Source of the DNA: Cliona cf. orientalis
Lineage: Eukaryota; Porifera; Demospongiae; Clionaida; Clionaidae
Reading direction: 5' to 3'
DNA: 64,000 nt
NCBI GenBank assembly: GCA_963930775.1
Contig: OZ005698.1
Span: forward strand, 6,640,501 to 6,704,500
Below, one piece after another: positions 4,136 through 36,810 of the stretch (positions within the stretch are counted from its first letter, which is position 1; every line of letters starts with the position of its first letter). A program made the translations under genes and the position numbers. Under the pieces are notes generated by a model that saw only the letters and a program-made list of their open reading frames with translations, had not been told where the DNA came from and did not search any database.

Positions 4136-4176
4136 TAGTCTCGTGACCCAGCCCCCTAAACGCACGCGAAATAGGG

Positions 4177-5184: not shown

Positions 5185-5930
5185 AAACAGGCGCAGTGCA
5201 TGCAACATACCTCTCCACGTATCCATCCCCTATCTCTGGAAAATCCTTACAAATGGAAAATTTTCTTACAATATAGTGCATGCAACATACCTCTCCACGA
5301 ATCCATCCCCTGTCTCTCTGGAAAATCCTTACAAATGGAAAATTTCCTTACTAGCAACATAGTGCATGCAACATACCTCTCCACGTATCCATCCCCTGTC
5401 TCTCTGGAAAATCCTTACAAACGGAAAATTTCCTCACAACATAGTGCATGCATCATACATCTCCACATGTCCCTCCCCTGTCTCTCTGGAAAATCCTTAC
5501 AAACGGAAAATTTCCTCACAACATAGTGCATGCAACATACCTCTCCACGTGTCCATCCCCTGTCTCTCTGGAAAATCCTTACAAATGGAAAATTTCCTCA
5601 CAACATAGTGCATGCATCATACCTCTCCACGTGTCCATCCCCTGTCTCTCTGGAAAATCCTTACAAATGGAAAATTTCCTCACAACATAGTGCATGCATC
5701 ATACCTCTCCACGTATTCCTCCCCTGTCTCTCTGGAAAATCCTTACAAATAGAAAATTTCCTTACAATATAGTGCATGCAACATACCTCTCCACGTATCC
5801 ATCCCCTGTCTCTCTGGAAAATCCTTACAAATGGAAAATTTCCTTACAACCAAATTAATAATCCCTCCCCTGTCTCTTTGGAAAATACTTAGCTACAAAT
5901 GGAAAATTTCCTTACAACCAAACACTGGAT
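5185..5930. repeat. Minisatellite, about 82-bp unit, eight units plus degenerate ends
   Basis: Successive units carry GTGCATGCAACATACCTCTC, CATCCCCTGTCTCTCTGGAA and CTTACAAATGGAAAATTTCC, spaced 82 bp apart (for example unit starts near 5362, 5444, 5526, 5608, 5690 and 5772). The last two units are shortened. The period is not a multiple of three, so the overlapping 80-residue open frames over it are artefacts. There are no spacers, so it is not a CRISPR array. Confidence 0.92.
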
Positions 5931-14165: not shown

Positions 14166-14618
14166 TCACTCTGCAACAAGGACATTGTATTCCTTTTTGC
14201 TGATCTCTTTCCCTCCAACACAGACATACAAGCACTGATGGCTTTGGTGAACCTTTCCAGGAAGAGTATCACCTCGGTGGCTATGTCGGCCAATGTAGTA
14301 GACTTCTCCACTCGAATCACGACCACCTGGCACAGCTCCGTTGGGAACGTTTCCGTTTTTCCTGTGAATCCACTCAAGCTTTACTTGGTTCCTCGGGTTA
14401 ACCAGTGCTTCGTAGTCCTGATGCTTATGCTCGCCGCCCCCAAATGGCACGTAGATGCAGCGGTGACTAGGATGAATCTTGCCAACGATTAGGGCACCTC
14501 CGTGGTGGGCACGCCCAACAAAGAGAGGCTCTCCAGTGCTTGCGTCCCAGCCGCCGTTTACGGCATCTTTTGGAACTTGGCCATCGCGAGAAGCACTCCA
14601 TACCAACTTGTCTGCCAT
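14166..14618 (-). CDS. DM9-domain (DUF3421) lectin-like protein, complete copy
   Basis: A single exon encodes 150 residues from ATG at 14618 to TGA. Two DM9 repeats of about 70 residues are visible: the first has LVWSASRDGQVPKDAVNGGW, GEPLFVGRAHHGG and CIYVPFGGGEHKHQDYE, and the second has LEWIHRKNGNVPNGAVPGG, GEVYYIGRHSHRG and CLYVCVGGKEISKKEY. DM9 proteins bind mannose-type glycans and act as recognition lectins in oysters; they are also found in insects and natterin-like proteins. There is no signal peptide or membrane segment, so the protein is predicted to be cytosolic or non-classically released. It is head-to-head with membrane-PARP gene A, ATG to ATG 187 bp apart. A truncated copy lies at 2304-2648. 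Confidence 0.9.
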   Translation of the reverse strand: MADKLVWSASRDGQVPKDAVNGGWDASTGEPLFVGRAHHGGALIVGKIHPSHRCIYVPFGGGEHKHQDYEALVNPRNQVKLEWIHRKNGNVPNGAVPGGRDSSGEVYYIGRHSHRGDTLPGKVHQSHQCLYVCVGGKEISKKEYNVLVAE

Positions 14619-14805
14619 CTTCCTCGAGTAAGTTTAATTAAATTTAAACTATTGGACTCTCAACTACCAAGGGGTGTGTATCTTGTCATCCCGCGCGGGT
14701 CAAAATATTACTGCGCATGCGCATAAATATGCGCACGTTTACCCGACTCGCGCCGACAAAATAGCCTGTAACTTAACTCCGCCTACTTCTAGCCTAACAA
14801 AGAAA
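14619..14805. promoter_or_regulatory. Shared bidirectional promoter region with NRF1-like palindrome
   Basis: The 187 bases between the divergent start codons of the DM9 gene and membrane-PARP A are the only room for both promoters. They contain TGCGCATGCGCA (14712-14723), which matches the NRF1 consensus YGCGCAYGCGCR. GCGCATGCG-type palindromes also lie upstream of copies B (23551-23562) and C (29163-29171). No TATA box is obvious. The same palindrome is common in repeats of this window, so its regulatory role is an inference. Confidence 0.5.
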
Positions 14806-17800
14806 ATGAGCGTGGTGAGTTGTGCACCGTCGAAACTACTTTCCGAGATCCACTACCGTCTCCCTCACTTGAGCCACGTGAGGTTTGGAGGAAATTTTAC
14901 AGACGGTAGCCTGTCAGAGACTCTACCAGGCGAGATTGTGGTAAATAATAATATTATTATGCATTCATGCAAATGGTAACTAGCTATACGGCTAGCTACT
15001 GCTAAAAGAGCATCATGGGTGGCTCCTGCCATAGCAGCAATCGATATTATAAGCTTAATATATTGCATACTGGCTATAGGCCCTAGCTACTATGTTATCA
15101 CAATAATAATTATTATAGCTGTAAATTGTTGCAGCATGTTGGAGGATGGGCTGGAATTCTGTTGACCATTTCTCTCCTGCTGATGGCATGCTTCTATGTC
15201 CTCTGTTGCTGCCTGTGTGTCCATGGCCAGTGCAAGAAAGGAAAGTGTGCAACATGCCAAACTAAGACTGCTTATCAGCAGCTGCTTCGATACACATCTG
15301 GGGCTCTTGCGATTCTCTCTGTGTATGTTGAAAACACGTTGGTGTGCTGTTAACTAGACTAATCATAGTGCTTAAGTAGTAATAATTCAGTGTACTGAGT
15401 CAGATATTACTAGCGGTACACTTCGTGCATAAACATCCTCGCTAAGCTCAAATAAGTCTAAGTAAGTGAAAATGGCTTATGAACCACGTGCATGTAGGTA
15501 GGGGTGTGTTTTGCACCAACTGTTAGCTAGATACTCCATAGTTAAGTATTGGGATTACAAAAGTTTCAACTGAAAGATGCTATAGTGACAGCATTGAAGC
15601 TAAGAGTTAGCGAACAGGTAGCCACAAGGTCTAATATCGCTGATGCAAGTAATCAACCCAGAGGTCTCCAACCAAAAGAAGACTATCGTTTTGAACGTCA
15701 CAAAAAAGTCTTGTGGGGGTGATTCAGTGTAGCCATATACATTCACTGAGAATTTCACAAGATAGAAATCCATGTTTGACAGTTACTGCTACTGAAAAGA
15801 AATCAGTATCGAATTGTACGAAGAAAGGCTTTTAAAGTTGACGCACAATTTTATGGTCTGTTGAATGAAATCAACAAACCCAGGAACTGTGACTATCATG
15901 GTTCTTTGTGAATGTGGCTGCATGACCATGCATGTTTGATATCCTTAGAACTGGCGATGGAGCTTGATTCACTGTAGTGAGCAATAACGAAATTTAGAGG
16001 GCACGCAAAGAATAGCCATTGAAGCCATACGATCTTGGCCGAGCCCAAGTAGGGGACCTTGCTTTGCTCAGAATTAGGACTTGTGTGCATGATTGATGAA
16101 GATGGCCCCAGTTAATTTTTCAAGTTTAAGATTTACTGCTACAGTTTATGTCTTGCATCTATAATTCTATTATAGGCTGTTGACGCTGTTGGCATTTTGG
16201 CCTGAAGTTAGAATGCACAGTGGAATTAGCACCTCCTCTCATGACGTCCAAAAACTTGTACCTGAGATTGCAGAACAAGTCATGGATCATGCATTGCTCA
16301 GCATTGAACAGCAAAGGTATAGCATAATTCCAGTATTCTACCTAGCCTACCTAAGGTATATTGGTCCTATAGCTATAGGATAGTATATGGGAAAATTGCT
16401 ACTCTTATTTAAGTTCCCAGCATTAACACAAGCATTTGGGCTAAAAGATCAGTGTTTTTCCCAAGCAAAATTTAGGTGGGCACTGTGCACCTACATCAAA
16501 GCATCCCCATTCTCCATAATGAAAGAGAATTCCACATTGAAGGCTTGTTGTGGGAAACATTCGAAGGAGAAAACTTTCACAGATCAGTAGAAAGTGAGCG
16601 TTTCGAGGAGAAATCTTTTGCTGAATAAAAAAAGACGAATAGCTAGGTGGGTATGGACATGCCCGAATTTTATGGAGAAATCTTACGCGGGTGGCTCCCA
16701 AACTGCGGAATTCATGATGGTTTTCTCCCTCGAAAGTTTCCTGCAATACAGTATAATACTGTAATAGACTGAGTATGCCTCAGTCTCAAAGATTCAACCT
16801 CTCTTCAATTTCAGGCATGGTTTGGTGGTTGGCTATCTGGTATGTCTTCTGCTGTTCATGATAGTGGCAATCTTTGTCATATTTTTTGCCCAGTGCTGTG
16901 ACTGTGGCACAGGTGTCTTTATGTGAGTACAATCACACTATAACACATGCCATTATAGTAATACTGTATGGCCGAATGTTTCACTTAATATTCCACCAAG
17001 CCAATAATAAGCTATCTTTGCATTACTGCAATAATAGGGTACCATGTATTCTTAATTATTTTAATTATAGAAAATAGAACAGGATTAAAAATTTAATTTT
17101 GCCATTAAGAGGAGGTGGCGAAATCAGCAAAAGCTTTCTCCTGGCGAAAATTATTTATGATTATACCATAATATTATACAGTAGACCATGTCCCAACTCA
17201 GATGCCTATATATATGAACCCTTGACCATCTCCCCAGTAGCTGCATAGTGTAATGGTGCATATGGTAAAAGGTCGTCAATAGAATGCGTACACATCGATC
17301 GATGCTGGCCCCAGAAATCATGGAGATGGCGTCTAAGATCGACTCTCAACCTTGATAGCGACAAGTTTCGATGCTTCAATCACAGAGACGAACTCGACAA
17401 CACAGTATTCCTTCCGAAGTTCAGGTTGGTCACGCTGCTGCAGTCGCGCGCGGGCCAGCCCCTTGTGGCAGTGATGCGTGCTATATATAGCGCAAGGCTA
17501 GCTTTATTTATCCATGGCATTACGTAAGCCAAGAAAACACGTGAAGTTCAACCAACAGTACTTCTCAGAGAAAGTAGCGTTCAGCTTGTAATCTATTCGC
17601 TGGATACACGCGTAAGATACTCTACATATTTACTGATTTTCAAGTCTCAGAAAGGCTCCAGCGAGGCCCTGAATTTTCTCATAATTACCTCATAGATTAC
17701 ACTATAGGTTTCATCATAATTACACTATAATTACCTCATAACCACAGAAAAGTAAATTGCTACTGGTGAGATAATATCTCCATCTGTGCATGATGTAATC

Positions 17801-20435
17801 TATCATGCTATTGTGTATTGTTTCTCTTCTTTTGATGCATGGATAGTGTATGCATGGGCTATTTTCTTTTACAGAGTGATGATAGTGCTAGCAGGTGTAA
17901 CCACTGCAGTTCACCTCCCCCTGGTGGTTTTCCTGTTTGCTATACTTGAGGTATGTTCTTAAATTTAATTAGGTATAAACCACAGTGTTCAAAGCATGTA
18001 CATAAATACACCAGCATGCACCACAGGTAATAATTTCATGGTGCATGCCACCTGGATTAGCCCAGCATGGGTGCTGTACGGGATATGTAATAGTCATACC
18101 ATGGACATATGAGGGATATAAAGGCACTGAAGCACGAATATGGAAACTGTTATTATACCGTGACTAGAAATTTACTCCATCCATGGGCACTTACCTGGGA
18201 GTGGGCTGCTTTTCCCAGGCAAGCGCTCCGTTGAATTGGTATGCTATGCAGGCTTGCCACTCGCCCTCAAAATTAATTTCGCCATTGGAAATGATACCAT
18301 GCATGGCTGTCACATTGTGTGCATGTATGTAGATGTATGCAGATGTGTGTATCAGTATCTATTCCCTGGAAGATATCAGACTCTGTACAGATGTACGGCT
18401 AAATGTAAGCTCCTATTCATTATGTATCTGAAGAATAATATTGTTGTAATAAAAATTAATTATAACTACTTTCAGCAGATATCAATTTTGACTCACTGAA
18501 TGTATTCTGTAACGAAACTGTGTAAGTTTGCATGCAGGTAGGATGACGTATATACGTAGTACAATCATCTCATTCCAGATTTGATATCACAGAATATCAA
18601 TAATATGCACGCGCAACCACTAAAATCATGAAGCCATAACTAACTGCAGCTGCAGCTAAACAGAATGTAACTCAGTGGTTGCAACTTAAGTACCTTCTAA
18701 TGATATTCAGGCCCATGTACAAGCAGGGTGATTGTGATATCACATCTGGAAAGAGATGTTTGTACTACTATTGTGTGCATTGCACACTCCTTGTAATGTA
18801 CTCCTGCTATAATGTAGCTTTTGCTTACATACACAGGGATAATGGGTTCATTCTGACAATGGTGATACTCTCTCTAGCTGCACTACTCATCCTCATTCAA
18901 GGCTTTGGATTTTGCTATGGATCTCAGCTTTGCTGGTAAAATTAATGTTCATCTCCAACATATGATGTGTTTTTTTTTCTCACTGAGTCTGAAATATTTC
19001 TACATAATAGCAAGACGGTAGATAATAAGAGAGAAGAGAGTGTCCAACACCCTATATGCTCTGTGTAAGATGTCTGCAGAAAGTAACGCGCCAGGAATTC
19101 AAAAATTGACCAATGAGAGCGCTCAGTTCATATGGTACGTCGTGGGTGTGGCCTCGAGTGCAAGTTAACGCAAGCGTGATTTCGACCAAAAACGCTAGCA
19201 GATAACAATATAAAACGAGCGTTCATGAAGATTCTAGCACAAAACTTACAAAAAAGGGCTCTATTTTTCATAATCTTACGAAAAACCAAGTATTTAGCCC
19301 CTAGGGCTAGTCACGCGTGCGCAAGGTGGGAAGTCACGTTACTCGACGCAAACATGTTGTATGGAGCATATAGCGCGTTGGACACTCTCTTCTCTTTATT
19401 ATGTACTCTTGATAATAGATTATTATACTATGGCTAGTGTAGCTACATTTTAATTCGACAAACACTTATGTCAGTACAAACTGTGAGGAGCAAATACTGC
19501 TTTTTTTAATTTATGCCACATACTATCGTAGCAGTTAATATGGTGAAAGGGCTATAGGGATAGGGATAGGTGATATTTTTATAAAGCCATCATACCTTAC
19601 TACTGCCTTTTAGTAGCTTATAAGCCTCTGATTAATTCTATGCAGCTCAAATAGTTGCAAACTCGACGAATGTCATGAAAACCAAGAAACTGGCACCAAT
19701 CTCCAAGAGATGCATGGGACTACCAATCTCCGGGAGACGCAAGGAACTGGCACTGTAACATGTACAATTATGGCTACTGTTTCTCAGAGTACAGTCATAC
19801 CATGGTCACCACAGAAGGATTTGCGTGGGCTAAAGCCAGTTGATCATTCTTCAAGTGAGTGGCTACATATAAAAGACAAGGTGACCCGCACACTTAAGGA
19901 AGCCAATGTTATCAAGATGCAGCAGATCCACAACACATGGCTATGGGACGCCTATACACAATCGAAACATCGTCTGAGCAAAAAGAATAACGGGTGTACT
20001 AATGAAAGGCTTCTCTTTCACGGTAGCAGTCAGACTCGACCAGAACAGATCTACAATTCTGAGAAGGGTTTTGACTTTCGATTTTCCAACCAAGGCCTGT
20101 GGGGAGAAGGGGCCTATTTTGCTGTCGATGCTCAGTACTCCGATCGTTATGCTTATGAGCCATACAGTGGAAGGCGGCAGTTTTTCCTTGCCATGGTGCT
20201 GACGGGTGAAAGTTGTACTTGTGGTGAAGATAGATCACTTAAGAAGCCACCACTGAAGGAGAGGAACAAGATGTTTACGGATGAACGTTATGACAGCGTT
20301 CACGGCAAAACTGGTGGCTCGGATATCTATGTTGTCTATGAACATGATAAAGCCTATCCAGCATATATACTTGATAACATACACTCTTCACTCATAGCGA
20401 TGTTTACAATATTAGATGAAGTGATATCTAGGTAG
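14806..20435 (+). CDS. Five-pass membrane protein with C-terminal PARP domain, copy A
   Basis: Nine exons: 14806-14940, 15135-15322, 16176-16316, 16815-16922, 17875-17950, 18333-18384 (or -18404), 18479-18521, 18837-18935, 19646-20435; about 543 residues. The N-terminus carries an N-glycosylation site (NFT). Helices lie near 51-72, 101-117, 158-180, 192-215 and 251-276. The first intracellular loop is Cys-rich (CCCLCV, CKKGKCATC), and the loop before helix 5 has Cys and CNET. This fits N-out and a cytosolic C-terminus. The last exon carries the PARP domain with LFHGSSQT (His about 406) and GAYFAV (Tyr about 438). A 4-bp TATA insertion relative to B and C near 20373 shifts the frame at the final strand: the triad Leu becomes Ile and about 20 novel residues follow. 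AATAAA lies at 20519. With the downstream exon 6 donor, exon 7 meets TGA, so the upstream donor is needed. I know no family with this architecture. Confidence 0.78.
19022..19402. mobile_element. MITE in intron 8 of membrane-PARP A
   Basis: The termini ATAATAAGAGAGAAGAGAGT and, on the opposite strand, ATAATAAAGAGAAGAGAGTG continue as about 39-bp inverted repeats through GTCCAAC and TATATGCTC. The interior is non-coding. Confidence 0.82.
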
Positions 20436-21640
20436 AGGGACTAAATGCATAATATAGTATGGAATAGTATCGTTTGAAATGTTAGACCTTCATAGTATTA
20501 TAGGGCCACACTAAGAGTAATAAAAATTAATTAATGTGCACTATCTCCACCGTACAAACATAATTATAATACTACTAGTGGTGATGAAAATCATCTGTGC
20601 GGGGCGAGCCTTCGCGAAAGTCACAAGATTTCTTTGAAAGCACACAGGCATGCATGCGTACATGGGGTTGGTGCCCCAATAGCTAGGCCTGAGAAGCTAC
20701 TATGACAGTGAAAGTATCACAGATTGCTACGTAGTACAATAGCTATAGTCCAATAATGTTGATCACCTATACTACAATATATTTAGTAGTCCACATGCCA
20801 TGACCATGATTCCAAGTACCTGTCTATAGCCAGGCCCTGAGAGGATAAGCCTCCATGGAGTCATCTTCATGCTCAGGAAAGTGGAGTCTATCAGTGATGT
20901 TAATCGTGGACCTGAGCCTTGCCAGAGTGGTACAGCACTCACCTTTCCAGTTTTGTGCCTGTACATGTCCGAGTTTTCTCTCAGATCGATCATGTGCAGT
21001 GAAGGCGTATGCGCATGCGCATGACGACCATTATGATCACCCCACAAACATACAATTATTATAAAATATAATATATACATATACTAGTGGTGATGAAAGT
21101 CATCTGTGCGGGGCGAGCCTTCGCAAAAGTCACAAGATTTCTTTGAAAGCACACAGGCACGCAAGCACACGTTGGGTTCGTACCCCAATAGCTAGGCCTG
21201 AGAAGCTACCACGACAGTGCGGAAAGTATCAGATTGCTAGTATGGTAGCTAGCTAGCTATAGTCCAATAACGTTGATCACCTATACTAATTTAGTACAAA
21301 TCTACATGCCATGACCATGAGTCCAAGTACCTGTAGCCAGGCTCTGAGAGGATAAGCCTCCATGCAGTCATCTTTATGTTCAGGAAAGTGGAGTCTACCA
21401 GTGATGTTAATCGTGGACCTGAGCCTTACCAGAGTGGTACAGTACTCACCTTTCCAGTTTTATGCCTTGCCTACACTGGAGCTGTCTCTCAGATCGATGG
21501 TGGAGTGCGGGCGTATGCGCATGCGCATGACGACCATTACCTTACGCGTTCAAAATTTAACTCTCTCCTCACTGAAATGATCACCCCACAAACATATATA
21601 TAGCTATATATATATACAGTGCAACCAAGCAAGAGAGCAA
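20436..21640. repeat. Tandem duplication of an about 510-bp unit
   Basis: 20572-21080 and 21082-21600 are near-identical head-to-tail units starting ACTAGTGGTGATGAAA and containing GTGCGGGGCGAGCCTTCGC. Plus-strand frames of about 70 codons at 20855 and 21362 are similar over their first 35 codons and then diverge. I do not recognise a protein, and similarity is expected from the recent duplication. Confidence 0.8.
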
Positions 21641-22517
21641 AACTTTTTAAAACCATATTTTTGGGCTAAAAACTATACAGACAGACCTACTTGATATCAA
21701 AATGGCCACAACAATCATTTTTATTGTGTTTTACAAAATTGCAAATTTCCCATATATAGCTAATACAGAAGCCACATATGTGCAGGCCAGTTTTCATAGA
21801 TTTTTCACTGATTTTTGATAAAAATAGCTATATCTTGGAAGTGGTAAGGAGTCAAGACTTCAAATTTGGGATTTAGTAACTTTATTACAAGTGCTATCAG
21901 CCCACCAAGTGGAATTTCTTAACTAGAACTAAATAGGAAAAAATGTGCCTAACATATTTGGCCCTCCGAAAGGGATTTTAGGACAATATCTGGTTAGCAA
22001 TGCACTGCACAGCCTCTACACTCATGTCCAATTAACTTCATATGGATGTGCATGACTGGGTAGAGCGCACACCCTTAACCGAAAACAATACTCATTTAAT
22101 GTGCCTAACATATTTTGGAGAGCCATGTTATCTTATGAAGCCATAAAAATGGAAGCAATCATGGTTACATCCCATATTTTAAATTCTATGTAGAGTTTAT
22201 GTTGAAGAAGATTGGTACCAAATTTCAAACTCTTATCTATAATAGACAGTCACACAGTCAATTTTGGTACCAAGATCAGCTTCTCTGTACTAACCGCTTC
22301 AACGAAGCTAGTTTGTATTGTCAGAAACGACGACTTGGTTGGTATATTGCAAAAGGTGGCACTATCGTGGACAAGTGATTGCTAGCATCGAGACACCTGT
22401 GATTTTTATAGTAGCTACCGGCACTCATACACTGATCATACAGTCCGCTCAGTCATGCTGTGTCATTGATATTATGACTGCATTGTGTGCCAAAATAACT
22501 ACAATGTCTACATACAT
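21641..22517. other. Intergenic, no feature seen
   Basis: This AT-rich stretch has no long frame, no clear RNA gene and no strong inverted repeat. Confidence 0.5.
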
Positions 22518-23480
22518 CACTACAGGGATACTGCAAAACCTGGACTCTGGACTCTGGACTGGACTGGACTGGTGACGACCAATACCAGTTTTCTGAGGTA
22601 GAGAATAGTGTTTTGAAGGTTGGATGATTCGCAGATCACTCGTTGTACACTGCCAAGTATGACAAGAGTTCAAATTTGTACTTGTGCTACCGTCCAATGG
22701 CCACACAGTTGACCATGTGAAAATTCAATAGGTCAAATATACCACTACTGATCCCGTACTAGCTATTTGTCTGCTCAGTGAGCCTGGGTTCAAGGCTCAG
22801 CAAATGGTGGAGCCACTTTTTATGTGCTTAGCCAGGGCAGTAGGTCAATATGCTGTTTTATTCCATGGAAACTCACCTATCATAAGTTGCTCATGGACAT
22901 GAGCAGTCATGACAAGACTCGAATATGCACTGTTTGGGGACCATGATCACCAGCTGGCCCAGACCGTGACAGTAAATAGTCCCAGGCCACTGTTCACTAA
23001 TTGCTTATCGGTATCTCTGACATACACTAAACAATATTAAATGTTCTGGCAATAACTGATGCCGCTGGCTATATTTTGAATGAGGGACTGTGATCTGTAA
23101 CCAATCAATAGTGATCGAATATCTTTGTCACAGTTGCCAAATCAGGCTCTCAGAGCCTTGTGACAGTAGATATTTAGATTACAGGCTGAATAGGTTACAT
23201 TCTCATCACATATATTGATCTTTTTGCATTTCTACAAGCAGTGGGGTTTCTATCCAATGTGCTGATAGCAAATTTGAACTCTGATCATATACTTTTGAGT
23301 CTACAATGAATATATAGAGTGACTTCACTCCTCTGTGAGTCATCAGGTTTTCAAAACACACTACTTGTCATCAGTCTCGGAAAGCTGGTAATGGTCATCA
23401 CCAGTCCAGTCCATAGTCCAGTCCACGGTCCAGTCCAGAGTCCAGAGTCCAGGTTTTGCAGTTACTGATCACTACAACAT
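22518..23480. mobile_element. Foldback element with (GGACT)n arms
   Basis: The left arm has CTGCAAAACCTGGACTCTGG followed by ACTGGACTGGACTGG. The right arm (about 23376-23465) is the complement, ending CCAGGTTTTGCAG, with a longer run of AGTCCAGTCC units. Pairing continues imperfectly inward to about 130 bp per arm. The arms share the TGGACTGG unit with the foldback at 38573-39619. No coding content is seen. Confidence 0.75.
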
Positions 23481-23550
23481 CTACGCAGATGCTAGGTCTA
23501 TACAGCGGGGAATTCCCAGGAGATTTGCAGCCGGACGTGATACTTCTTGT

Positions 23551-23562
23551 ACGCATGCGCGC
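23551..23562. promoter_or_regulatory. NRF1-like palindrome upstream of membrane-PARP B
   Basis: ACGCATGCGCGC lies 88 bases before the start codon. The following stretch ATAGCCTGCCAAAGAAGAGT is shared with the copy C leader and, in part, with copy A, so it is a conserved promoter or 5' UTR block. Confidence 0.45.
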
Positions 23563-23649
23563 GTGTGCATTTCACGCAGTCTTCGATCTCGCAAATTAAC
23601 CCCGCCTATTAATTATAGCCTGCCAAAGAAGAGTTGACTGAATACCATA

Positions 23650-26600
23650 ATGGTGGACTGTGCACCCTCAAAATTACTTTCCGAGATCCACTACCGTCTC
23701 CCTCACTTGAGCCACGTCAGATTTGGAGGAAACTTTACAGATGATAGCCTGTCAGAAACCCTACCTGGAGAAATTGTAGTACGTTTAATACAGTGACAAA
23801 TTTACTAAACAAAGAGTGCATGGAAAGATTAATTTGATAGTTCTGCAATATGCCTCCTCTGCGTCAGGCATGAATAATAAAATTGGTGTTAAATCAATGA
23901 CTGTACAGCTATCAAATTTATTATTATTATCATCGGAATAGATGACTTATCTACAGCTAGTAGATCCACCAACTGGTAGGTGTGTGACATTGTGTGTGTG
24001 CATGATTGGAAATAACTACTTACAAAACAACTGGCCTACTGATAGGTCACAGTGCATCACATGCAAGTGTATGCACACAGGTGTGCATACACATACTTGC
24101 ATGTGGTGCACTATTTACTATAGACTCTCATGATTGTCATAAACTATCGTAGCATGTTGGAGGATGGGCTGGAATTCTGTTGACCGTTTCTCTCCTGCTG
24201 ATGGCGTGCTTCTATGTCCTCTGTTGCTGCCTGTGTGTCCGCTGCAAGAAAGGAAAGTGTACAACATATCAAACTCAGAATACTCAGCAGCTGCTTCGAT
24301 GCATGTCTGGTGCTCTTACCATTCTATCTGTGTAAGTCAATTATACTGTGTGATAATAATTTTTGACGTTAATTTTTAAATACTGCATGAGTACTAAGCA
24401 TGCAGTAGCCTACACATGTGGCTTGTCCCCAGGCTCCTCCCAGTTTATACACTACGATGTTGCACACAGAAGAAACGGGAGGCTAGCTGAATGGGGACGA
24501 GGCTGTAGGATGCTACTACTACTAATAATAATTTTGTTTATTGCTACTGTAACAGTACTTATAATAGCCTCGTCCCCAGGCTTCTATGAAAGATTAAAAA
24601 CATGGGAGTGGCCTGGGGACGAAGCTAGTACTTAGTATTTTATATCGTAATAGGGTTTTGGTGCTGTTAGCGTTTTGGCCTGAGGCTAGAATGCACAATG
24701 GAATCAGCAGCTCCTCCGGTGATGCACAAGAATTGCTACTTGAGATTGCGGAAGATGTTGTGGACAGTGCACTGCTTAGCATTGAACAGCGAAGGTAAAT
24801 CATTATTAGCTATGATGAAGTGACATTATTCTCAGTAACTGATGTCAGACTAGATGGTCTAGTCATCCTCAGGGCAAAATTCACGTCATAATGAATACAC
24901 AGAGGACAACTAGAGCATGTATTTCAGTGAAACGCTGGCAAGTTTAAGTTGTCTGCTTAAAAATTTAATCTTGAAGTTAGTATTATTAGCGATGATGTTA
25001 TTGAAAGTCACAGTATAGTAATTATTTTGCCATGATTGTACTTCTTTTGCTAAGACATACATTTATTTTGCCAAGGGCGGAGAACAGGTAGCAAAAGTGG
25101 GGGGGCTCAGACCTTTGACTGTACTGTGACAACTGTTAGGCTGTGGGCATATGCCCACAGCCCACCTAGGGGGGTCTGGGGGCATGCTCCCCCAGAAAAT
25201 TTTGGAAATTTCGACTCCCTGAGAGCGTTTCTGATGCAACCTGGCACCAATTTTTGGACTGATTTTAGTAGCAATTTTTACTTTAGCACTCTTTGCAAAC
25301 ACCTAGAATTATGACAGAACTATGTTGCTGTAATTTTGTAGTATGGGCATATGATAAAATAGGGGGGCTCAGCCCCCCTTGTTTTCAAAGTGGGGGGGGC
25401 TGAAGCCCCCCCTGCCCCCCCCCTATTTCTCCGCCCCTGTAAATTGCAAAGGCACACAATCATCTACATAAACGTATCTCTTTGCCCGCAAAATCTTTGG
25501 CCATCGTATAATGAGCATTGCATGGACTTCATATTATAAGTACATAATGCTAATTTATCTTGATTTCAGGCATAGCTTGGTGATTTGCTATCTGGTATCT
25601 CTACTGCTGCTCATGATAGTGGCAGTGTTCATAATATTGTTTGCCCAGCGGTGCACCTGTGGCACAGGTGTATTCATGTAAGTATCATGTACTATATTAT
25701 AGTACTATGCATCCTGTTTGCATGACCTGTTGTGTGTCCTTATCTATAGTGTTTATGGTTATGCATCAGGTGTGTAACTGTATACTATTAATAGGGGCTT
25801 TTTCTTGTGTTACAGAACAATGATAGTGCTAGCAGGTGTAACCACTGCAGTTCATATCCCCCTGGTGGTTTTCCTTTTTGCTGTACTTGTGGTATGTTAA
25901 TGACATTTAAATAATTGCATTTTTTTTATTGTATCATCACATACCACTTTTATACATGTGTGCACGTCCATGGCACGACATGATACAATGTCATGAATGC
26001 CACATACACACTCATATGAATAATTATAGATGTATGCAGACGTGTGTATCAGTATCTACTCAACGGGAGATGACAGTTTATGTATGAATATGCAGCAAAA
26101 TGTAAGCTTTATGACTACAATGTGATGATCATGACATGATAACTGTTACATGTACGCAGATATCTGTTATCCAAATTCACTGAATGTGTTTTGCAACCAA
26201 ACTGTGTAAGTTTTGATAGTGCCCGCAAAACATTATAAGATTGAATGTGTTTTTAGGATGCATGAAACTGATTTTACACACAGATATCATGGGTTCATTT
26301 TAATAATGGTAACACTCTCTCTGGCTGCACTACTCATATTAATTCAATTTTTTGGATTTTGCTATGGATCGTTGCTTTGCTGGTGAGTATAATACTACTA
26401 ATCTACGGCAATTTTATTTTGAAGGCCAAACTTCAACACTCAGATTGTGTGCGCTACAGTGCGCATTGTAGTCCAATTTCACAGCTTTCTCTTATTGGCG
26501 AAATTTTATCCATAGTGAGTTATTTATCCTGTGCTAAAGATATTGGTGACCTTTACAGCATTAATTGGCATAAATTTAATCCACCGAGTAGCTAACTAGT

Positions 26601-27560
26601 TTTGTAGCTCAGAGATAGCTGTGGCAATACTTTTGTCCAGGAATACCCTTAATTTAGCTAACATGTATTGTAGGGATCGATCCACAGTGATTAGGCCTTT
26701 GTATAATAGCATACCATGATATTTATTCCAGAATGCAAGCTAAAAAAATTGTGCAATTTTCTGGTAAAAAGCTTTACACACTCCATTGAGCTACATGATG
26801 AAAAGTCCTAGAACTGAATTATGGCTAGCAGGATAATCACTCAATCGGTAAATTTTTATGCAGCATAAAAGAAGACAATAATGAAGAAAGTGGTATCAAG
26901 ATGCGTGATCTTGTGACTGGTACTACTGCTAATGATAATAATATAGTTTCTAGTAATTGGACTCCACAGAAGAATTTCCTTGGGTTAACGCCAATTGACC
27001 GATCTTCCAAAGAGTGGGTACAAATCAAAGATAGAGTTCACCATACCCTTAAGGAAGCTAACATTATCGACATACAACAAATCCACAATAAATGGCTATG
27101 GGATGCGTATGCACAATCGAGACTTCGTCTGAGTGCAAAGAATGGAGGGATTACTAACATTAATGAAATGCTTCTCTTTCATGGTACCAGACAGACTCGA
27201 CCAGAGCAGATTTATAACTCTGAGAAAGGCTTCGACTTTCGATTTTCCAACCAAGGCCTATGGGGAGAAGGGGCCTATTTTGCTGTCAATGCTCAGTACT
27301 CCGATCGTTATGCTTATGAGCCATCCAGTGGAAGGCGGCAGTTTTTCCTTGCCATGGTGCTGACGGGTGAAAGTTATAGTTGTGGTGAAGATAGATCACT
27401 TAAGAAGCCACCACTGAAGGAGAGGAATAAGATGTTTACAGATGAGCGTTATGACAGTGTTCACGGCAAAACTGGTGGCTCGGATATCTACGTTGTCTAT
27501 GAACATGATAAAGCCTATCCGGCATACTTGATAACATACAGTCTTTATTCACAACAATAG
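23650..27560 (+). CDS. Five-pass membrane protein with C-terminal PARP domain, copy B
   Basis: Nine exons: 23650-23778, 24153-24331, 24654-24794, 25570-25677, 25816-25891, 26030-26081 (or -26101), 26160-26205, 26284-26382, 26864-27560; about 508 residues. Exon phases match copies A and C. Helices come from exon 2 (GILLTVSLLLMACFYVLCCC), the exon 2-3 join, exon 4 (SLLLLMIVAVFIILFA), exon 5 (VTTAVHIPLVVFLFAVLV) and exon 8 (LSLAALLILIQFFGFCYG). The N-terminus keeps NFT and the last outer loop keeps CNQT. The PARP domain shows LFHGTRQT, GAYFAVNAQYSDRYAY and an intact YPAYLITY end (H-Y-L). As in copy A, exon 7 is in frame only if exon 6 uses the earlier donor (TTTAT|GTATGA). AATAAA lies at 27706. 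Membrane anchoring would place mono-ADP-ribosylation at the cytosolic face. Confidence 0.8.
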
Positions 27561-28525
27561 GTGTGAAGTGTCTCTTCTAGCTAGGATGACCATGCATGCA
27601 TGCAAATTGCATTAATGAATGTTAGATATTCACGTTTTGGTGCATAATATTATTATTATTATTATTATTATTATATGCTTATTAATAGGAGTGGTCAGAA
27701 ATTTCAATAAAGATAATGTCATAAGGTATGAGGGATGCATATGCACTAATCCCTGGATTTACATCAGTATCCATCGCGAATTTTTGAAGCCACGCCCACT
27801 TTGGGACAAAACCACGCCCATTTCGATCGTTTTTGAGAGAAACTATCAATCCTACTAGTCCATTCGATCTGTCATGATCTGTTGAACGTGTTTTCTGCTA
27901 AAGCATGCCAAGGTGAGCCATAGCAGTAGTTTTCTTAGTTCTGTAGACAGAGAGGGGGAGGTTCCATTTAGCCTACCAATCAGTACTTCATAGCCTATCA
28001 TCAGTACTTCATAGTGCTAGGTGCAGCCCAAAGGGGGGTTCCATGGAACCCTAGGAACCACCCTGAATCCGCCACTGAACATAGCTATCCAAGATAGAAA
28101 CATCGACATCGATGATCGATCCATGAACATCAGTGATCGAGACGTCGATATCATGTGTGGAAACATCGATGCGATTATACAATCATGAATTTTGTTCACT
28201 ATGGCGCTCCATAGATCTAGGCATCTGAGCGACTCGTAAATACAACGTATCCGTAAATATTGCCGAAAAACTGACTTCAGTATGCGTTTGGTAAGGCCCA
28301 CGAGCGTTGCAAATACTGTGTTTTGTTGGCCACGCCTATGGACACTACCCACTATGTACTCTCTGCTCATGCGCACAACCTGGCACAATAATATAGGTAA
28401 AGGTCGTCAACAGGCTGCTCGCATCATCGAGCATAGATATGATCGACGCTGCAGCGTGCGCGGGTATGTGCTCTATAGAGCTCTAGTTTTGGAGATATGA
28501 TGGCTATGAATAACCATAGATTAGG
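27561..28525. repeat. Intergenic with a dispersed repeat shared with 62.6-63.1 kb
   Basis: From about 28195 to 28495 the sequence follows 62690-63085 in order, with shared blocks such as CTGAGCGACTCGTAA/CTAAGCGACTCGTAA, TTTTGTTGGCC, CCACGCCTAT and CTACAGAGCTCTAG-like ends. It is a dispersed element of unknown class. The first 600 bases hold only a TTA microsatellite. Confidence 0.6.
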
Positions 28526-28960
28526 AATAACGCTGTCATGCAAGAAGATCTAGTCTTCAGACAAATCGCCTAAGCACTCGTCATTCTGAGCACCACTGCT
28601 GTAAACGCTACTGAATCGCTTGATCGATCGAGCCAGCTAGTTGTTAGCGCTAGCGGCCCTCGCATCCATCACGTATATACCCAAACGTTTGTGGGCGTGG
28701 TTATGTAAACGCATACCGTAGACTCTGGTTAATAAGCGCATGCGCTTAACGCTTATAGCGGTAAACGGAATAACAGGATATGCGCTTATAATTATATGGC
28801 ACATAACCACGCCCACAAACGAGATGCGAGGCCCGCTAGCGCTAGCGCTAGCACTAGCGCTCGATCGATCGAGGTTTTTAGCGTTTACAGTTGCCGCTCA
28901 AGATGACGACTCCTGGCGATTTGTCGATCTTCTTGCATGATCATAACGTTATTCGTGGCC
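28526..28960. repeat. Large imperfect hairpin upstream of membrane-PARP C
   Basis: Bases 28526-28711 and 28797-28960 are inverted copies of one another. Shared blocks include TGCAAGAAGATC, TCGATCGAG, TAGCGCTAGCG, TGTGGGCGTGGTTATGT and their complements. The loop contains the left end of another inverted-repeat element (28731-29183). Confidence 0.75.
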
Positions 28961-29183
28961 ATCATTTCTCCAAAGATAGCTACCTGACTCCAAATACTTT
29001 CCAGCCGGTCAAGGTCAGGTTCATAGAACGCCACGCCTTTTAAGCGCATGCGCTTAATAAACAATAGCTTATGATAAGAAGAGGGCATGCGCTTAATAAA
29101 TAATGTGCGTTACTGTATCCTTATTTAATAAGCGCATACTGTCGTTCCGTTCACCACTATAAGCGCATGCGTTTATTAACGAT
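28731..29183. mobile_element. Inverted-repeat element with AAGCGCATGCGCTT ends, nested with the hairpin
   Basis: TTAATAAGCGCATGCGCTTA followed by TAGCGGTAAACGGAA at the left is mirrored at 29117-29183. Four or more AAGCGCATGCGCTTAATAA-type palindromes are scattered between. It ends about 35 bases before the start codon of copy C, so it must overlap that gene's promoter. Confidence 0.65.
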
Positions 29184-29217
29184 AGCCTACCAAAAGAAGA
29201 GTTGACTGAATATTACA

Positions 29218-32200
29218 ATGGTGGATTGTGCACCCTCAAAATTACTTTCCGAGATCCACTACCGTCTCCCTCTCTTGAGCCACGTCAGGTTTGGAGGAGA
29301 CTTTACAGACGATAGCCTGTCAGAAACCCTACCTGGAGAAATTGATGTACGTTAATACAGTGACGAATTTTATTGAACGAAGAGTGCATGGAATGATAGC
29401 TCTGCAATATGCCTCCCTGCATCAGGCCTAAATGGTGTTAAATCAATGACTACACAGCCTAACAAATTTACTATGCAAATAGATGAGCTAGTAGATCCAC
29501 CAACTGGCAGGTGTGTGTGTGTGCATGATTGCTTGCAAAAAATGCCAATAACTGGCCCACTGATAGGTGTGCATGCACTTGCATAATATTACATATGGTG
29601 CTACAGACTATTCCAATAATATTAGTACTATTGTCATAAACTATATCGCAGCATGTTGGAGGATGGGCTGGAATTCTGTTGACCGTTTCTCTCCTGCTGA
29701 TCGCATTCTTCTATGTCCTCTGTTGCTACCTGTGTGTCTGCTGCAAGCGGATAGGAAAGTGTACAGCATGTCAAACTCAAAATGCTCAGCAGCTGCTTCG
29801 ATGCATGTCTGGTACTCTTGCCATTTTATCCGTGTAAGTCAATTATTGTGATATAATTGCTGTTAGAACACATTCTCTTTTATTATTTTCTTTGCAAGAT
29901 TTGGGCTAAAATTAGCCATTTCCACAGCATTTTTTTTAAATATAAAAATCATTCATTTCTTTAGCATGGATGCTGGATTTAATGACACAAAGTGATAATA
30001 ATTCAACGAATTGTCATAATAGGAATGATTCTCCTCAATTCTTCAGGAACACTACAATCTAAGAGAATACAAATAATGCCTTAAAGTTTTAGTATAGCTA
30101 GCACCTAAAAAATCAACAAAATTCAATAGGAAACACAGTTAAAAACATCCGGTCGATTAGTTTTTACACTCCATGTCCTCCCTTGAGCATCTCTGCTTGA
30201 AATATCGGACAGTAGTAGAATTTAAGTGCCATGGAAGGCAGCTCAGAATTACAGCCTCAACACTAGATAGTCGGCGACATTAAGTATACGTGTTCTACAG
30301 AAGAGAGAATATTGATATTAAATTATTAGAGGTCCTAAATATTATGAAGCAGCTAGCTAGATGCCAAAAATTTGGGTACCATGGTAAAATCCATCATTCT
30401 GTGATTGCTAACTACTACCTAAATTTAGGTACTGCTACAATACTGTGGCCCAATATTCACATTTTGGAGCACGCTGAGGTAGATACCTAACTTTAGGTAC
30501 CACAGTAAAATCTGGTACCCGTGGTGGCTAGCCACTACCTAAATTTCGGTGCTGCTGCAATACTGTGGCCTGATACTTACATTTTTGGAGCATGCCAATC
30601 CATGCATGGCATAAGTGTAGACTTATGTCAGATATGTCATGCATTTATGTAATAAAATTATTCAGCCCCACACACAGATAAGACGGCCTAATGGCCTTTG
30701 GCCATGTGGCTTTATGGCCAAATGGCCTTAAGGTGAGCAAGCAATAATTTGTCCCTGTTTTAAGGTACCATGCATGATGGACTACTCTAGCCTGTCCCCA
30801 GGTGTCTTCCTGTAGCTATAGGAATAGCTATTCACGACTCTATGTCAGTTTTGATCTGACACTGAAATTTAAATATTGAACTTTCCGATCAGTGAAAAGA
30901 TATGTACTTGCTTGATCATGCTGGTTCATTACATGGGTATGGCATACACTATTGAGACCTGCTCTGAGAAAAGGGACCACTCAGGATATATATTTCATAA
31001 AAATTGAATTTTTAGCATGGATTGATAGCTTTATGTGTGCTGAATCCAATGGTGCAAGTTTCATGAAAAAATGTCGATAATAAGTGGAGTTATGACCATT
31101 TCTATACACACAGGTAGATATATTCGTTTTTGGAAAATGCACATATTTAATTAAATAAGTTGTATGTGTCCGAGCAATTATTTACATCCATTACAATAGT
31201 TTACATAATAGCAACAGTTACTACATAAACATAATAGCATATCAATATCAATACGAAGCTAAAATTCTACATTTTCTTGTAGACTAAAATACAGAAAAAT
31301 GATAAATATTTATTTCGCCACATTAAATTTTAGCTATTACTGCAAGATGAAATTTTATATCCCAAGTGATCCCTTTTCTCAGAGCAGGTCACTTATGCAT
31401 GGTAGCAATATATCACGCCGTGATGGTCCCCCACAAATTGTGGTCCCTCCAGCCCGTGATTGTCCACTGTGCCGATTATAATATTATATGGTCCCCCAAG
31501 ACAAACTCAGAAGACTAACCCTGCCGTACATGCAGACCCTCGAGACTAACCTTTTTGCTTACTGAAACCCAGCCCCTGATCCCTCTCATAAATTGCGGGG
31601 GGCAGTGGTGTCGCCAGGGGGGTGCATGTGGGTTCATTTGCACCCAATCCATGCACCTGTGCACCCATCCTATGTATGATATTGTGTAGTTTTGTTGAGC
31701 CTGTCACAGTATGCATGCTATACTATCACAGCCAGTGATGTAACATGTCATGTATACATCACTACAATGTCATATATTGTGTAGACTGCATGTCTACATA
31801 TAATAGTACTTAATAGTATTACAATGTCATGTATACTATAGTACACTTCTGCTAGCTTTATGCATCCACCTGTGCGGTTACTTTCAATAACTTGCACCCA
31901 GTTAAACAATTTCCTAGAAACGCCACTGGCGGGGGGGGGGGGGGGGGGGGGGGGGGGGCCATGATGCACAGTAGCCAGATGGTCCTTAACAGTATGACAG
32001 TACTCAAAGTGACATAAAATTGACAATAAGATGTCACTTACTCATAATTATTGTACAATCTAAGCACAGGTGTGTAGCTAACTTACCCTGTCGTGTCGAT
32101 ACAAACATGTTACTGACATTAAGTTGGAGTCAACTGTCGTGTACCTGGACAGGATACCGTTGTTATGGGGACTATTTATCTCGGAAGAATCTAATTGCAC

Positions 32201-35200
32201 CAGCATGATCAAATGAGTGCATGTGTAGCTACCTACACTTTTCACTGATCTGATAGTTTAGCATTCATTCAGGGTCAGATCAAAACTGACACAGAGTCAG
32301 CAAGAGACCTGCATGGGGACAGGCTAGAGTCACAGTCCATGGTACCTCAAACAGCTTGCTTAGCTTAAGACCATTTGGCCATAAAGCCACAAGGCCAAAG
32401 GCCATTAGGCCATCTTATTCCATAAGAGTTCAATATGGCTCCTGATACTAAACTGCTATAGTGGTAGGTAAGTGTAGCTATACGCTTATTGTGTTCTGTA
32501 GCTATATGATTGTTTAAGTATAGTGAAACCTGCATGAACTAAATTCACTCAGCTTCAACTATAAGTTAGCACAGCCATGAGTCTGGCTGTTCATAGGGGT
32601 GGGGATTAAAATGCTTACCAGGCCTCGAGCTTGAATAACTACTAGATGTGATGTGGCTCACCAAAAGGGGGGTGGGGGGGGGGGACATTGCCCTATGCCC
32701 CTATGCTGTATCCTAGCTATCATTTTCTTTGCTAACCATAAAAGAAGCACAGAATCTAAGGCTATCAATTGTATAATTATAGAATTATCTGTTTTTCTCT
32801 TTGATATCCAGCAGCTCAACCAAGATGCTTTCAAATCAAAGCCTGACTTTATGCTGTTATCGCTGGAAGACACTGTGACTAGCTAACAGCAATAATTATT
32901 ATGATGTTAAATCGACCAAAACACGTTCTCTTTTATTTCATCCAATTCTCTTTTGCAGGATTACATATAATTTGATCCATTTCTTAGAGGGCATGCTAAG
33001 AGATCCCGCAATTTTGATAATAAAAATTATCACATGAAATTAGCTGAATTGCTAGCAGCAAACGGGAGATGTTGTAAACTCCAGTCAGTTTCACCTTAAA
33101 TCTGGTGGGCCAGCCTCTCCTCCCCTCTCATCAAGGGCTGGCCCACCAGACTAAAATTTAATCGCTGTATGATAATAATAATTATTAGATACTGCATGAG
33201 TACTACGCATGCAGTAGCCTATAGCTGTGTAACATTAGAAACATGGGAGTGGCCCGGAGATGAAGCTAGTACTTAGTATAATTTTTATATCATAACAGAG
33301 TTTTGGTGCTATTAACATTTTGGCCTGAGGTTAGAATGCATAATGGAATCAGCAGCTTCGAATTCTCTGATATCGAAACTGATGATGCACAAGAAATGCT
33401 TCTTGAGATTGCAGAAGATGTTGTGGACAGTGCACTGCTTAGCATTGAACAGCTAAGGTAAATCATTATTTAATAGCTATGATGAAGTGATATCATTCTC
33501 AATTACTATCTACAAAAGAAGATTCTATGTGGACAAAAATAACTGATGTCAGACTAGATAGTCTAATCATCCTCAGGGCAAAATTCATGTCATAATGAAT
33601 ACACTGAGGATGACTATAGAGCATGTATTTGAAACGCTGACAAGTTTATTGAACAGTTAAGTTGTCTGCTTAAAGTCTTGAAGTTAGTGCATGTAGCTAA
33701 TTTTATCATGATTGTACTTAGTACTTGCTAAGATATTATACAGTAACGTTAAATTAAATTTTTATTTTGCAAAGGCACACGATCATCTACATAAACACAT
33801 CTCTTTGCCCGTAAAAATCTTTGGCCATCTTGGGACATTTTGACAATTTTTCTTAATTTCAGGCACCGCTTGGTGATTTGCTATCTGGTATTTCTACTGC
33901 TGCCCATGATAGTGGCGGTGTTCATACTGTTTTTTGCCCAGCGGTGCACTCATCGTACAGGTGGTGCGGGTGTATTCATGTGAGTATCTTAATTACAATG
34001 TCATACCAATGTACTATAGTACTATGCATCCTATTTGCATGACATTATGTGTCCTTATCTATAGTGTTTATGGTTATGCGTCGGGTGTGTAACTGTATAC
34101 TATTAGTAGGGGCTTTTTCTTGTGTTACAGAGTGATGATAGTGCTAGCAGGTGTAACTACTGCAGTTCACATCCCCCTGGTGGTTTTCCTTTTTGCTGTG
34201 GTTGTGGTATGTTCATGAGACTTAAATAAAACAGTTCGCATTTTTTTTTTGTTTTTATCAACACATACCACTTGTGTGCATCACATCCAGTCCATGGCAT
34301 GGCATTGTCATGCCACGTATACACTCGTATAAAAACAATAATATTATTATTATTATAGATGTATGCAGATGTGTGTATCAGTATCTACTCAACAGAAGGT
34401 GGCATTTTATGTACGAATATGCAGCAAAATGTAAGCTTTATGACTAAATGTGATGATTATGACATGATAACTGTTACATGTACGCAGATGTCTGTTAATA
34501 CAAATTCACACATGATCAATGTGTTTTGCAACCAAACTGTGTAAGTTTAGCTAGTGCTCACAAAACAAAAGATTGAACAACTTGAAGGGTTTATGGGGTC
34601 TATAGCTAAGCCCTTGGATTGAATGTGCTTTTACACACAGATATCATGGATTCATTTTAATAATGATAACACTCTCTCTGGCTGCACTACTCATATTAAT
34701 TCAACTTTTTGGATTTTGCTATGGATTGTTGCTTTGCTGGTGAGTATTTAGCTACTGCAATATTTGGAGGCCAAAGGTCTCGACACTCAAATTGCATGCA
34801 CATTGTAATGGTCCAATTTTACAGCTTTCTCTCATTGGAAAAATTTTATAATATTATTATTAATATGCTATTTATTTGTCCCGTGTTAAAGATAATGGCG
34901 ACCTTTACGGCATTGGTTAATCCACTGAGTAGCTAGCTATATTATACAGTACTTGGTAGCTAGCTGTGGCAATACTTTTGTCCAGCAATAACCTTTGGCT
35001 TATATACAGGTATTGTATATGGATCGATCCATAGTGATTAGACCTTTATATAACATATCAAAAGCGAGCTAAAAAAAGAATTACCATATCCAATCTAATT
35101 AACGCGCCTCTCTAATAGATGCGCCACCTCGGCCTGAAGTGCAATTTTCACATTCTATTTAAATGTGCCCACCCATGCGTCCCTATACTTTTGTGTACAA

Positions 35201-36079
35201 ATTTTGCGCGCCACCTGGTCGCGAAGGATAATTTTCACGCTCTAATGGCGCGCCACCCAGCACTCGTAATTATTTTTTCATGGCGCGTTAATTAGATCGG
35301 ATACGGTACAATTAATTTTTAACTCTCGTGCAATTTTCTGGTAAAGGTCGTCACAAGCTCCACTATAGAACTGAATTGTGGCTAGCCAATCAATAATAAT
35401 AATTGATCAATTTTTGTGCAGCATAAAAGAAGATGATAATGAAGAAATTGGCACTATTGCTAATGATAATATAATTTCTAGTAATTGGACTCCACAGAGG
35501 CATTTCATTGGGTTAACGCCGGTTAACCGATCTTCCAGAGAGTGGGTACAAATCAAAGATAGAGTTCACCACACCCTTAAGGAAGCCAATATTATCAACA
35601 TACAACAAATTCATAATAAATGGCTATGGGATGTGTATGCACAATCGAGACTTCGTCTGAGTGCAAAGAATGGAGGGATTACTAACGTTAATGAAATGCT
35701 TCTCTTTCACGGTAGCAGACTTACTCGACCAGAACAGGTTTACAATTCTGAGAAAGGCTTCGACTTTCACCAAGGCCACTTGGGAGAAGGGACCTATTTT
35801 GCTGTCGATGCTCAGTACTCTGATCGTTATGCTTATGAGCCATACAGTGGAAGGCGGCAGTTTTTTCTTGCCATGGTGCTGACGGGTGAAAGTTATAGTT
35901 GTGGTGAAGATAGATCACTTAAGAAGCCACCATTGAAGGAGAGGAACACGATGTTTACAGATGAGCGTTATGACAGTGTTCACGGCAAAATTGGTGGATC
36001 GGATATCTATGTTGTCTATGAACACGATAAAGCCTATCCAGTATACTTGATAACATACAGTCTTCATTCACAACGATAG
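29218..36079 (+). CDS. Five-pass membrane protein with C-terminal PARP domain, copy C
   Basis: Nine exons: 29218-29346, 29652-29833, 33299-33457, 33863-33979, 34131-34206, 34359-34430, 34488-34540, 34641-34739, 35422-36079; 514 residues, open throughout with standard GT/AG sites. This is the best-supported model of the three. The five helices match A and B; the N-terminal glycosylation Asn is replaced by Asp, while CNQT in the outer loop is kept. Exon 3 has a short extra segment (SSFEFSDIETDD). The PARP domain has LFHGSRLT, GTYFAVDAQYSDRYAY and YPVYLITY (H-Y-L); about three residues are missing before the Gly-rich turn compared with A and B, close to the NAD-binding region. Intron 2 is 3.5 kb because it contains a foldback element. 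The predicted role is cytosolic-face mono-ADP-ribosylation; the membrane and partners are unknown. Confidence 0.83.
30677..32420. mobile_element. 1.7-kb foldback element in intron 2 of membrane-PARP C
   Basis: The termini are GATAAGACGGCCTAATGGCC and, on the other strand, AATAAGATGGCCTAATGGCC, continuing through GGCTTTATGGCCAAATGG. Inner segments also pair: GATCTGACACTGAA near 30850 and its complement near 32270. Blocks with AACTTAACGTCAGTAACATG-like sequence recur at 38.9-39.3 kb and 63.4-63.5 kb. A run of 28 G lies at 31931-31958. No transposase is seen. Confidence 0.75.
31931..31958. repeat. Poly-G tract of 28 bases
   Basis: The run is uninterrupted on the plus strand. It could form a G-quadruplex; its exact length is prone to assembly error. 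Confidence 0.9.
33105..33153. repeat. Short hairpin in intron 2 of copy C
   Basis: TCTGGTGGGCCAGCC and GGCTGGCCCACCAGA are perfect complements around a 19-base pyrimidine-rich loop. Confidence 0.85.
35082..35308. mobile_element. MITE in intron 8 of membrane-PARP C
   Basis: TACCATATCCAATCTAATTA at the left is mirrored by TAATTAGATCGGATACGGTA at the right, continuing with ACGCGCC/GGCGCGT. The interior repeats GCGCCACC-type motifs. A decayed relative may lie near 5960-6030. Confidence 0.8.
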
Positions 36080-36810
36080 GTGTGAAGTGTTGATCTCTAG
36101 CTAATTAAGATGACCAAATGCAAATTGCATTAATGAATTGTAGTGAACATTAATATAACAATCATTTGTAGCAAATCTACAACAGAATGTTGTTGCTATG
36201 TAGATATTCAAGTTTGGTGCATTAAAGTTATAATTCATGTAACTTGGAGTGGTGATATTATTGTTTTTGTAGTTTGTGCTATTATAGTACATTGATTAAG
36301 GTTAATTGCAGCCAGACTATGGCGATCTTTACCGCATGCACATTCAACTCTATAGCTATAGGCGAAAATTAATACAAGTTTCTGCAGTATACTTAATTTT
36401 ACACAGGTTGGCTTTATGAAACTTTTATCCAGCAAAAAAATTAATTTCTATGAAGACATAAGGTATAAGGGGTGCACTTGCATGCCGGTCAAGTTTTTAA
36501 TCACTATAATGATATTATATCTTACATGCCAAGCTAATTATGCGTACTATAAGGTCATCTGGATAATCAATCAGAACTCAACCGCATAGATCATTACAAG
36601 AAATAACTCAATCTGAATATTATAATCATTGCAATAGAGTAACTATAAAAATCATCCCAGCACAAGGCTCAGTAGCACAGCAAGTACGTACATGTATAGT
36701 GAATATTATTATACTTATGGTATACTATGCCATCAATAATAATAATTAACACACCAACAACCTAAAGTGTTGAATTTGAGAGAGTCTAATAATATTATTT
36801 ATGGCTGTGA
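36080..36810. other. Intergenic between membrane-PARP C and Elongin B
   Basis: The two genes converge here, so this holds both 3' ends. The sequence is AT-rich and contains no recognisable gene. Confidence 0.5.

Follow-up and report, generated by a model that had tools for sequence, protein, structure and literature searches.

A tandem trio of sponge genes that probably joins a multi-pass membrane module to a PARP catalytic domain

How does a PARP catalytic domain come to stand in one reading frame behind a multi-pass membrane protein, and what might such a protein do? The question is raised by three neighboring genes in a 64,000-nucleotide stretch of the genome of the sponge Cliona cf. orientalis (hereafter the window: C10:6640501-6704500, contig OZ005698.1 of the 216.8-Mb, 149-contig assembly GCA_963930775.1; feature positions below count from its first letter). 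We built gene models from genomic DNA, on the basis of GT-AG splice sites and open frames. An earlier note on this DNA had described three tandem nine-exon genes, and our models bear this description out: GT-AG splicing yields open frames of 543, 508, and 514 codons for copies A (14806..20435), B (23650..27560), and C (29218..36079), all on the plus strand. Taken as a whole, we think it fairly probable that these genes encode a cytosol-facing mono-ADP-ribosyltransferase (mono-ART) held on a pentaspan membrane anchor, with its substrates chosen mainly by location. The parts of this proposal that we computed directly are the exon anatomy, the conserved intron phases, a ratio of non-synonymous to synonymous substitution (dN/dS) below 1 in both halves of the genes, the existence of relatives that lack a PARP domain, and the H-Y-I catalytic triad.

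The predicted division of labor among the exons is most easily followed in copy A. Here, exon 1 (14806..14940) encodes a putative outer N-terminus with an NFT sequon, exon 2 (15135..15322) the first transmembrane helix (TM1), a Cys/Lys-rich inner loop, and the first half of TM2, exon 3 (16176..16316) the rest of TM2 together with outer loop 1, exon 4 (16815..16922) TM3 and inner loop 2, and exon 5 (17875..17950) TM4. Outer loop 2 is split between exon 6 (18333..18384, with the motif YADVC and a phase-1 donor) and exon 7 (18479..18521, with an FCNET sequon); exon 8 (18837..18935) carries TM5, and exon 9 (19646..20435) a linker and the PARP catalytic domain. The corresponding exons of copy B lie at 23650..23778, 24153..24331, 24654..24794, 25570..25677, 25816..25891, 26030..26081 (exon 6, again with a phase-1 donor), 26160..26205, 26284..26382, and 26864..27560 (linker and PARP domain), and those of copy C at 29218..29346, 29652..29833, 33299..33457, 33863..33979, 34131..34206, 34359..34430 (exon 6), 34488..34540, 34641..34739, and 35422..36079 (linker and PARP domain). 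When the window was compared with itself, the blocks of DNA common to A and B or C coincided with exons, and copies B and C were alike beyond their exons, in much of their intron sequence. Intron 2 of copy C, upstream of its exon 3, spans 3465 bases (29834-33298) versus 853 in A and 322 in B, which we put down to an insertion.

From donor sites, polyadenylation (polyA) signals, and Met positions, we conclude that exons 1-8 and the PARP exon very likely form a single, jointly spliced gene, as had been claimed. Exon 8 ends with a GT donor in all three copies (matching the consensus at 4/6 bases in A and at 6/6 in both B and C), and intron 8 (710, 481, and 682 bases) contains neither AATAAA nor ATTAAA in any of them, while one of these hexamers lies within 150 bases downstream of each stop codon (candidate signals AATAAA at 20519..20524 for A and 27706..27711 for B, and ATTAAA at 36221..36226 for C, all on the plus strand). 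In copy C, exon 9 has its earliest in-frame Met at residue 92, immediately before the catalytic LLFHG, and this exon therefore needs upstream coding exons. Across the three copy pairs, dN/dS was 0.30, 0.38, and 0.52 for the transmembrane part, 0.25, 0.29, and 0.31 for the PARP part, and 0.89, 0.42, and 0.42 for the linker. Intron phases had been described as equal across the copies, which holds at seven of the eight introns and fails at intron 6, where the phase is 1 in A and B and 0 in C. The phase-1 donor of A and B sits 20 bases upstream of the site that corresponds to the donor of C, and exon 7 is shorter than that of C by 10 bases in A and 7 in B. A phase-0 donor, GTAAGC, occurs in A and B too, but by this route the frame runs into a stop within exon 7, after residue 246 in A and 242 in B; given this stop and the shorter exon 7, A and B need the phase-1 donor. 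Two observations weigh against our gene models. In A and B, exon 9 contains Met codons in frame upstream of the catalytic core, which makes the Met argument valid for C and is what one would expect if two adjacent genes had been wrongly read as one; with the halves co-occurring in all three copies, a GT donor closing every exon 8, no polyA signal in any intron 8, and no earlier Met in exon 9 of C, we regard such a misreading as very improbable. The phase-1 donors of intron 6, for their part, match the consensus at just 3/6 bases in A and 4/6 in B, versus 5/6 for the phase-0 donor of C, and the better-consensus phase-0 donor leads to a stop in both A and B, as would be the case if these two copies were decaying, with a broken exon 6/7 frame and a full protein made from C only. 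We consider this decay unlikely, because dN/dS between A and B is 0.30 in the transmembrane part and 0.25 in the PARP part, and because all nine exons stay open when the phase-1 donor is used.

The ninth exon was identified by profile and structure-database comparisons. The Pfam PARP model (PF00644) scored 54.3, 64.2, and 57.3 bits against A, B, and C, with a cut-off of 26.7, and a Pfam scan of the three proteins detected no macrodomain, WWE, RRM, or zinc finger. The closest PDB domains to copy C are those of PARP15 (E 3e-20), PARP12 (E 2.9e-18), and PARP14 (E 3.1e-17), mono-ARTs of Clade 3 that the copies also resemble in having an H-Y-hydrophobic triad: all three copies carry H-Y-I in an alignment read by eye, and passages of a review (PMC9189837) describe H-Y followed by Ile, Leu, or Tyr as typical of mono-ARTs. 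A structure model of exon 9 was poor (mean predicted local distance difference test score, pLDDT, of 52.1) and contributes nothing, which we count against our reading. Judged from its sequence, exon 9 quite probably encodes an active, PARP14/15-like mono-ART. To place it among the other PARP domains of this genome, we built a 13-domain tree from human PARP15 and 12 domains of this genome (out of 57 PARP matches listed) after removing 4 of 16 aligned pieces that contained a stop or spanned 150 residues or fewer. The three fused domains formed one clade with support of 100/99; their nearest rows by path were RRM-WWE-PARP neighbors in the same cluster, to which they are about 46-50% identical across the full domain, with the deeper joins open and some branches long.

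To find relatives of the membrane module, we searched the genome with the copies themselves. Copy C matched the three copies and a few weak places, among them one on C3 at E 7 and two on C15 that proved unrelated when read out. Copy A gave weak collinear matches on C9, and reading out these loci revealed three genes with the same eight exons as the transmembrane module. In all three, the phases are 0,2,2,2,0,0,2,2, exon 4 has 108 bases, and exon 8 has 99; copy C, whose exon 6 has a phase-0 donor like theirs, agrees with them in phase at 8 of 8 introns, and A and B at 7 of 8. The identity of copy C with the C9 proteins is 35, 31, and 34%, and all six family members agree in 54 columns (a hand count from the listed columns). 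In the two C9 genes whose tails were followed, a phase-2 junction connects exon 8 to short tail exons; the tail of one (C9_2) ends with VVEYQ and a stop, and the end of the other (C9_1) is provisional. The genome has at least 57 PARP matches, and among the 57 that were listed there is none on C9. A further weak match at C9:4437442-4437528 (E 0.16) may be a fourth relative on this chromosome. Since the C9 genes share exons and phases with the copies and lack a PARP match, the simplest history is the addition of a PARP exon followed by tandem duplication: the exon was probably gained at the phase-2 intron after exon 8 of an older pentaspan-family gene, which would persist in its PARP-less form on C9. 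Against this stands the reverse history, which we take to be the less probable one, with a PARP exon lost on C9 rather than gained on C10. Outside this genome, a scan of IMG/VR with two profiles returned no relative.

Which side of the membrane the PARP domain faces depends on the number of helices. Hydropathy resolves five hydrophobic regions in the module, but by itself does not settle the five helices claimed earlier, as the fourth region is about 38 residues long and shows two windows over threshold in five of the six family members, including all three copies (here, in the match to a possible fourth relative above, and in the register, AA_permease_2, and 150-shuffle profile tests below, the C9 proteins are preliminary versions that differ from the final models by 1-3 junction residues). 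Read literally, the resulting six windows in these five proteins put the PARP domain outside, which speaks against our reading. All six members, the three copies and the three C9 proteins, retain a sequon immediately ahead of the last helix; it fits an outer loop and hence five helices. Of the two sequons that the earlier note had listed, this one is thus present in every copy, whereas the N-terminal NFT occurs in A and B only and is DFT in C. The loop between TM1 and TM2 has 3-5 Lys/Arg within 11-29 residues in all six members, and that between TM3 and TM4 just 0-2. The module fits a 2+2+1 pentaspan layout, yet its fourth region could hold two helices; if that stretch spanned the membrane twice, there would be six helices and an outer or luminal PARP domain. 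This seems improbable to us, given the sequon and given that the human PARP-type mono-ARTs in passages from Table 1 of PMC9189837 are listed as cytosolic and/or nuclear. The last-helix sequon and the first loop favor five helices, with the N-terminus outside and the PARP domain inside, and a cytosolic PARP domain, as proposed earlier, is likely.

Whether the module also senses something is a separate matter. It had been suggested that it acts as a receptor-like sensor, with the PARP domain in the cytosol gated by a signal from the outside or from a lumen, and the fusion of a multi-pass module to an enzyme, the pair of Cys in outer loop 2 that is invariant in 6/6 members, and the retained sequon would all suit such a role. 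The two outer loops of the copies are short, however, at 39-50 and 21-36 residues, Pfam scans found no ligand-binding domain, and the existence of PARP-less relatives means that signaling to an enzyme is not a necessary function of the module. These three points make an anchor the simpler reading; we accordingly hold an anchor to be likely, rather than a gated sensor, and the sensor to be rather unlikely. With an anchor, each gene would give one protein consisting of a module of about five helices with its N-terminus outside, followed by a cytosolic linker and a PARP14/15-like domain. The membrane to which the anchor would tie the enzyme, on the cytosolic side, is probably the plasma membrane. 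There, the enzyme may mono-ADP-ribosylate proteins in its vicinity, with specificity coming mainly from location.

We then asked whether the module belongs to a known pentaspan family, and compared it with prominin (PF05478) and Tweety (PF04906). The 2+2+1 layout of prominin may fit the module, and four intron positions are shared in place and phase (partly by eye) with a prominin on C18 of the same genome: before TM1, in TM2, before TM3, and before TM4. Before TM3, an Arg codon is split in phase 2 in both module and C18 prominin (partly by eye), as it is in the second prominin of this genome, on C12 (by eye). The intron before TM5, in contrast, differs in phase from that of prominin. Tweety homologues are likewise pentaspan, N-out/C-in, and can be aligned in register with the module at their short N-terminus and at the motif that follows TM2. 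Both families differ from A-C in their outer parts, with outer loops of about 280 residues in prominin and outer domains of about 120 residues in Ttyh (passages of PMC11405016), as compared to the short loops given above. The near-invariant TM5 Trp of prominin, W795 in human (same passages), stands within NGFW in the C18 and C12 prominins, whereas A, B, and C have GFI there (placed by eye).

Sequence tests of this kinship were weak. The Pfam Prominin model reached only sub-cut-off matches, in 2/6 members, with a best E of 0.0016 and with 16.9 bits for the whole C module and 17.7 for an N-terminal fragment of B (cut-off 34.3); Tweety gave at best 14.8 bits, for the same B fragment (cut-off 31.8). 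Unrelated Pfam models did as well or better below their cut-offs, namely TMEM128 (E 0.0022) and, for an N-terminal fragment of C9_1, AA_permease_2 (E 1.9e-4). When a six-member profile was compared with prominin, 51 and 35 of 150 shuffles reached the real score; against Tweety, the best profile result, it was marginal (3 and 4 of 150), and the yardstick of Tweety against prominin, families treated as homologous in part of PMC11405016, was reached by 2/150. With single hidden Markov models (HMMs), 684, 373, and 378 of 1000 shuffles reached the prominin score of the three modules, and 346, 343, and 33 of 1000 their Tweety score; conversely, the module HMM was matched by 27, 59, 100, 53, 9, and 331 of 500 shuffles for human PROM1, a sponge prominin, and four Tweety rows. 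Exon-anchored alignment gave a combined p of 0.02 for the C18 prominin (exons 0.66, 0.016, 0.13, and 0.038), p-values of 0.008 and 0.52 for the C12 prominin, a combined p of 0.20 for TTYH2, and 0.056 or worse per exon for human PROM1. Of two PDB searches with the transmembrane profiles, one returned a chance match (E 0.16) and the other no match, and human TTYH2 found no match in this genome, an empty answer that is uninformative for this search. Sub-threshold Tweety matches elsewhere were dismissed, one on C1 as a lone hydrophobic stretch behind stops and those on C4 and C8 as coiled-coil-like. Because the sequence tests are weak and other Pfam models score as well or better, we call the superfamily link unproven: intron positions suggest a distant kinship to prominin/Tweety, and we regard the case for and against it as about evenly balanced. 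More speculative, and in our view rather doubtful, is the idea that the genes represent a loop-reduced prominin/Tweety branch with a mono-ART tail, which would link local ADP-ribosylation to the curvature of the membrane or to protrusions rich in sterol, and which would have arisen when an exon was captured in an early animal lineage whose PARP repertoire was large and recombining.

Further PARP frames occur near the three genes and elsewhere in the genome. Upstream, at 9917-12904 (plus strand), a 995-codon open frame has three RRM and two WWE stretches followed by a PARP domain, and is one of several such frames in the C10 PARP cluster. A DM9-repeat gene (PF11901, E 3.7e-49; 14166-14633, minus strand) stands head to head with copy A, the candidate ATGs being 187 bases apart, and a second DM9 frame occurs in the PARP cluster (L027:329-910, minus strand). 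On C18, very large open frames (L028, at 3-4757, as well as L029, L030, and L031) are each followed by a separate PARP frame (5011-5646 in L028), and both of the large frames tested (L028 and L029) contain HEPN; the N-terminus may be sacsin-like, to judge from a first impression. With the C18 frames taken as unspliced, they raise the possibility that this genome has combined its PARP exons with more than one kind of partner. The window also holds a tandem array of eight 82-base units at 5195-5850.

How new is this arrangement? The earlier note had taken it to be new, and this stands in part. A membrane-plus-PARP protein of a sponge has been mentioned before, the 'PARP12-like' protein of Amphimedon queenslandica, which its authors consider the ancestral type of Clade 3; the mention is one sentence, without helix count, family, topology, or gene structure (PMC4245714), and thus without the anatomy or the origin described here. 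Among the open-access PMC titles and abstracts listed, none dealt with a prominin-PARP or multi-pass PARP fusion. PARP16 (ARTD15), placed in Clade 6 (part of PMC4245714), is similarly a mono-ART held to the membrane through a transmembrane segment, but this segment is C-terminal and the triad is H-Y-Y (part of PMC9189837), as opposed to an N-terminal multi-pass module and H-Y-I in A-C; the combination of a C-terminal transmembrane segment and an H-Y-Y triad was found in none of the three copies. According to this 2022 review (PMC9189837), PARP16 is so far the sole family member for which a C-terminal transmembrane segment has been shown to provide a link to the nuclear envelope and endoplasmic reticulum. 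If our reading is true, there would be a second, different way of placing a mono-ART at membranes, by means of a multi-pass anchor, and since relatives without PARP exist in this genome, the step of fusion can be tested directly. The three genes would thus offer a natural case of an enzyme that gains a membrane address by way of a phase-matched exon.

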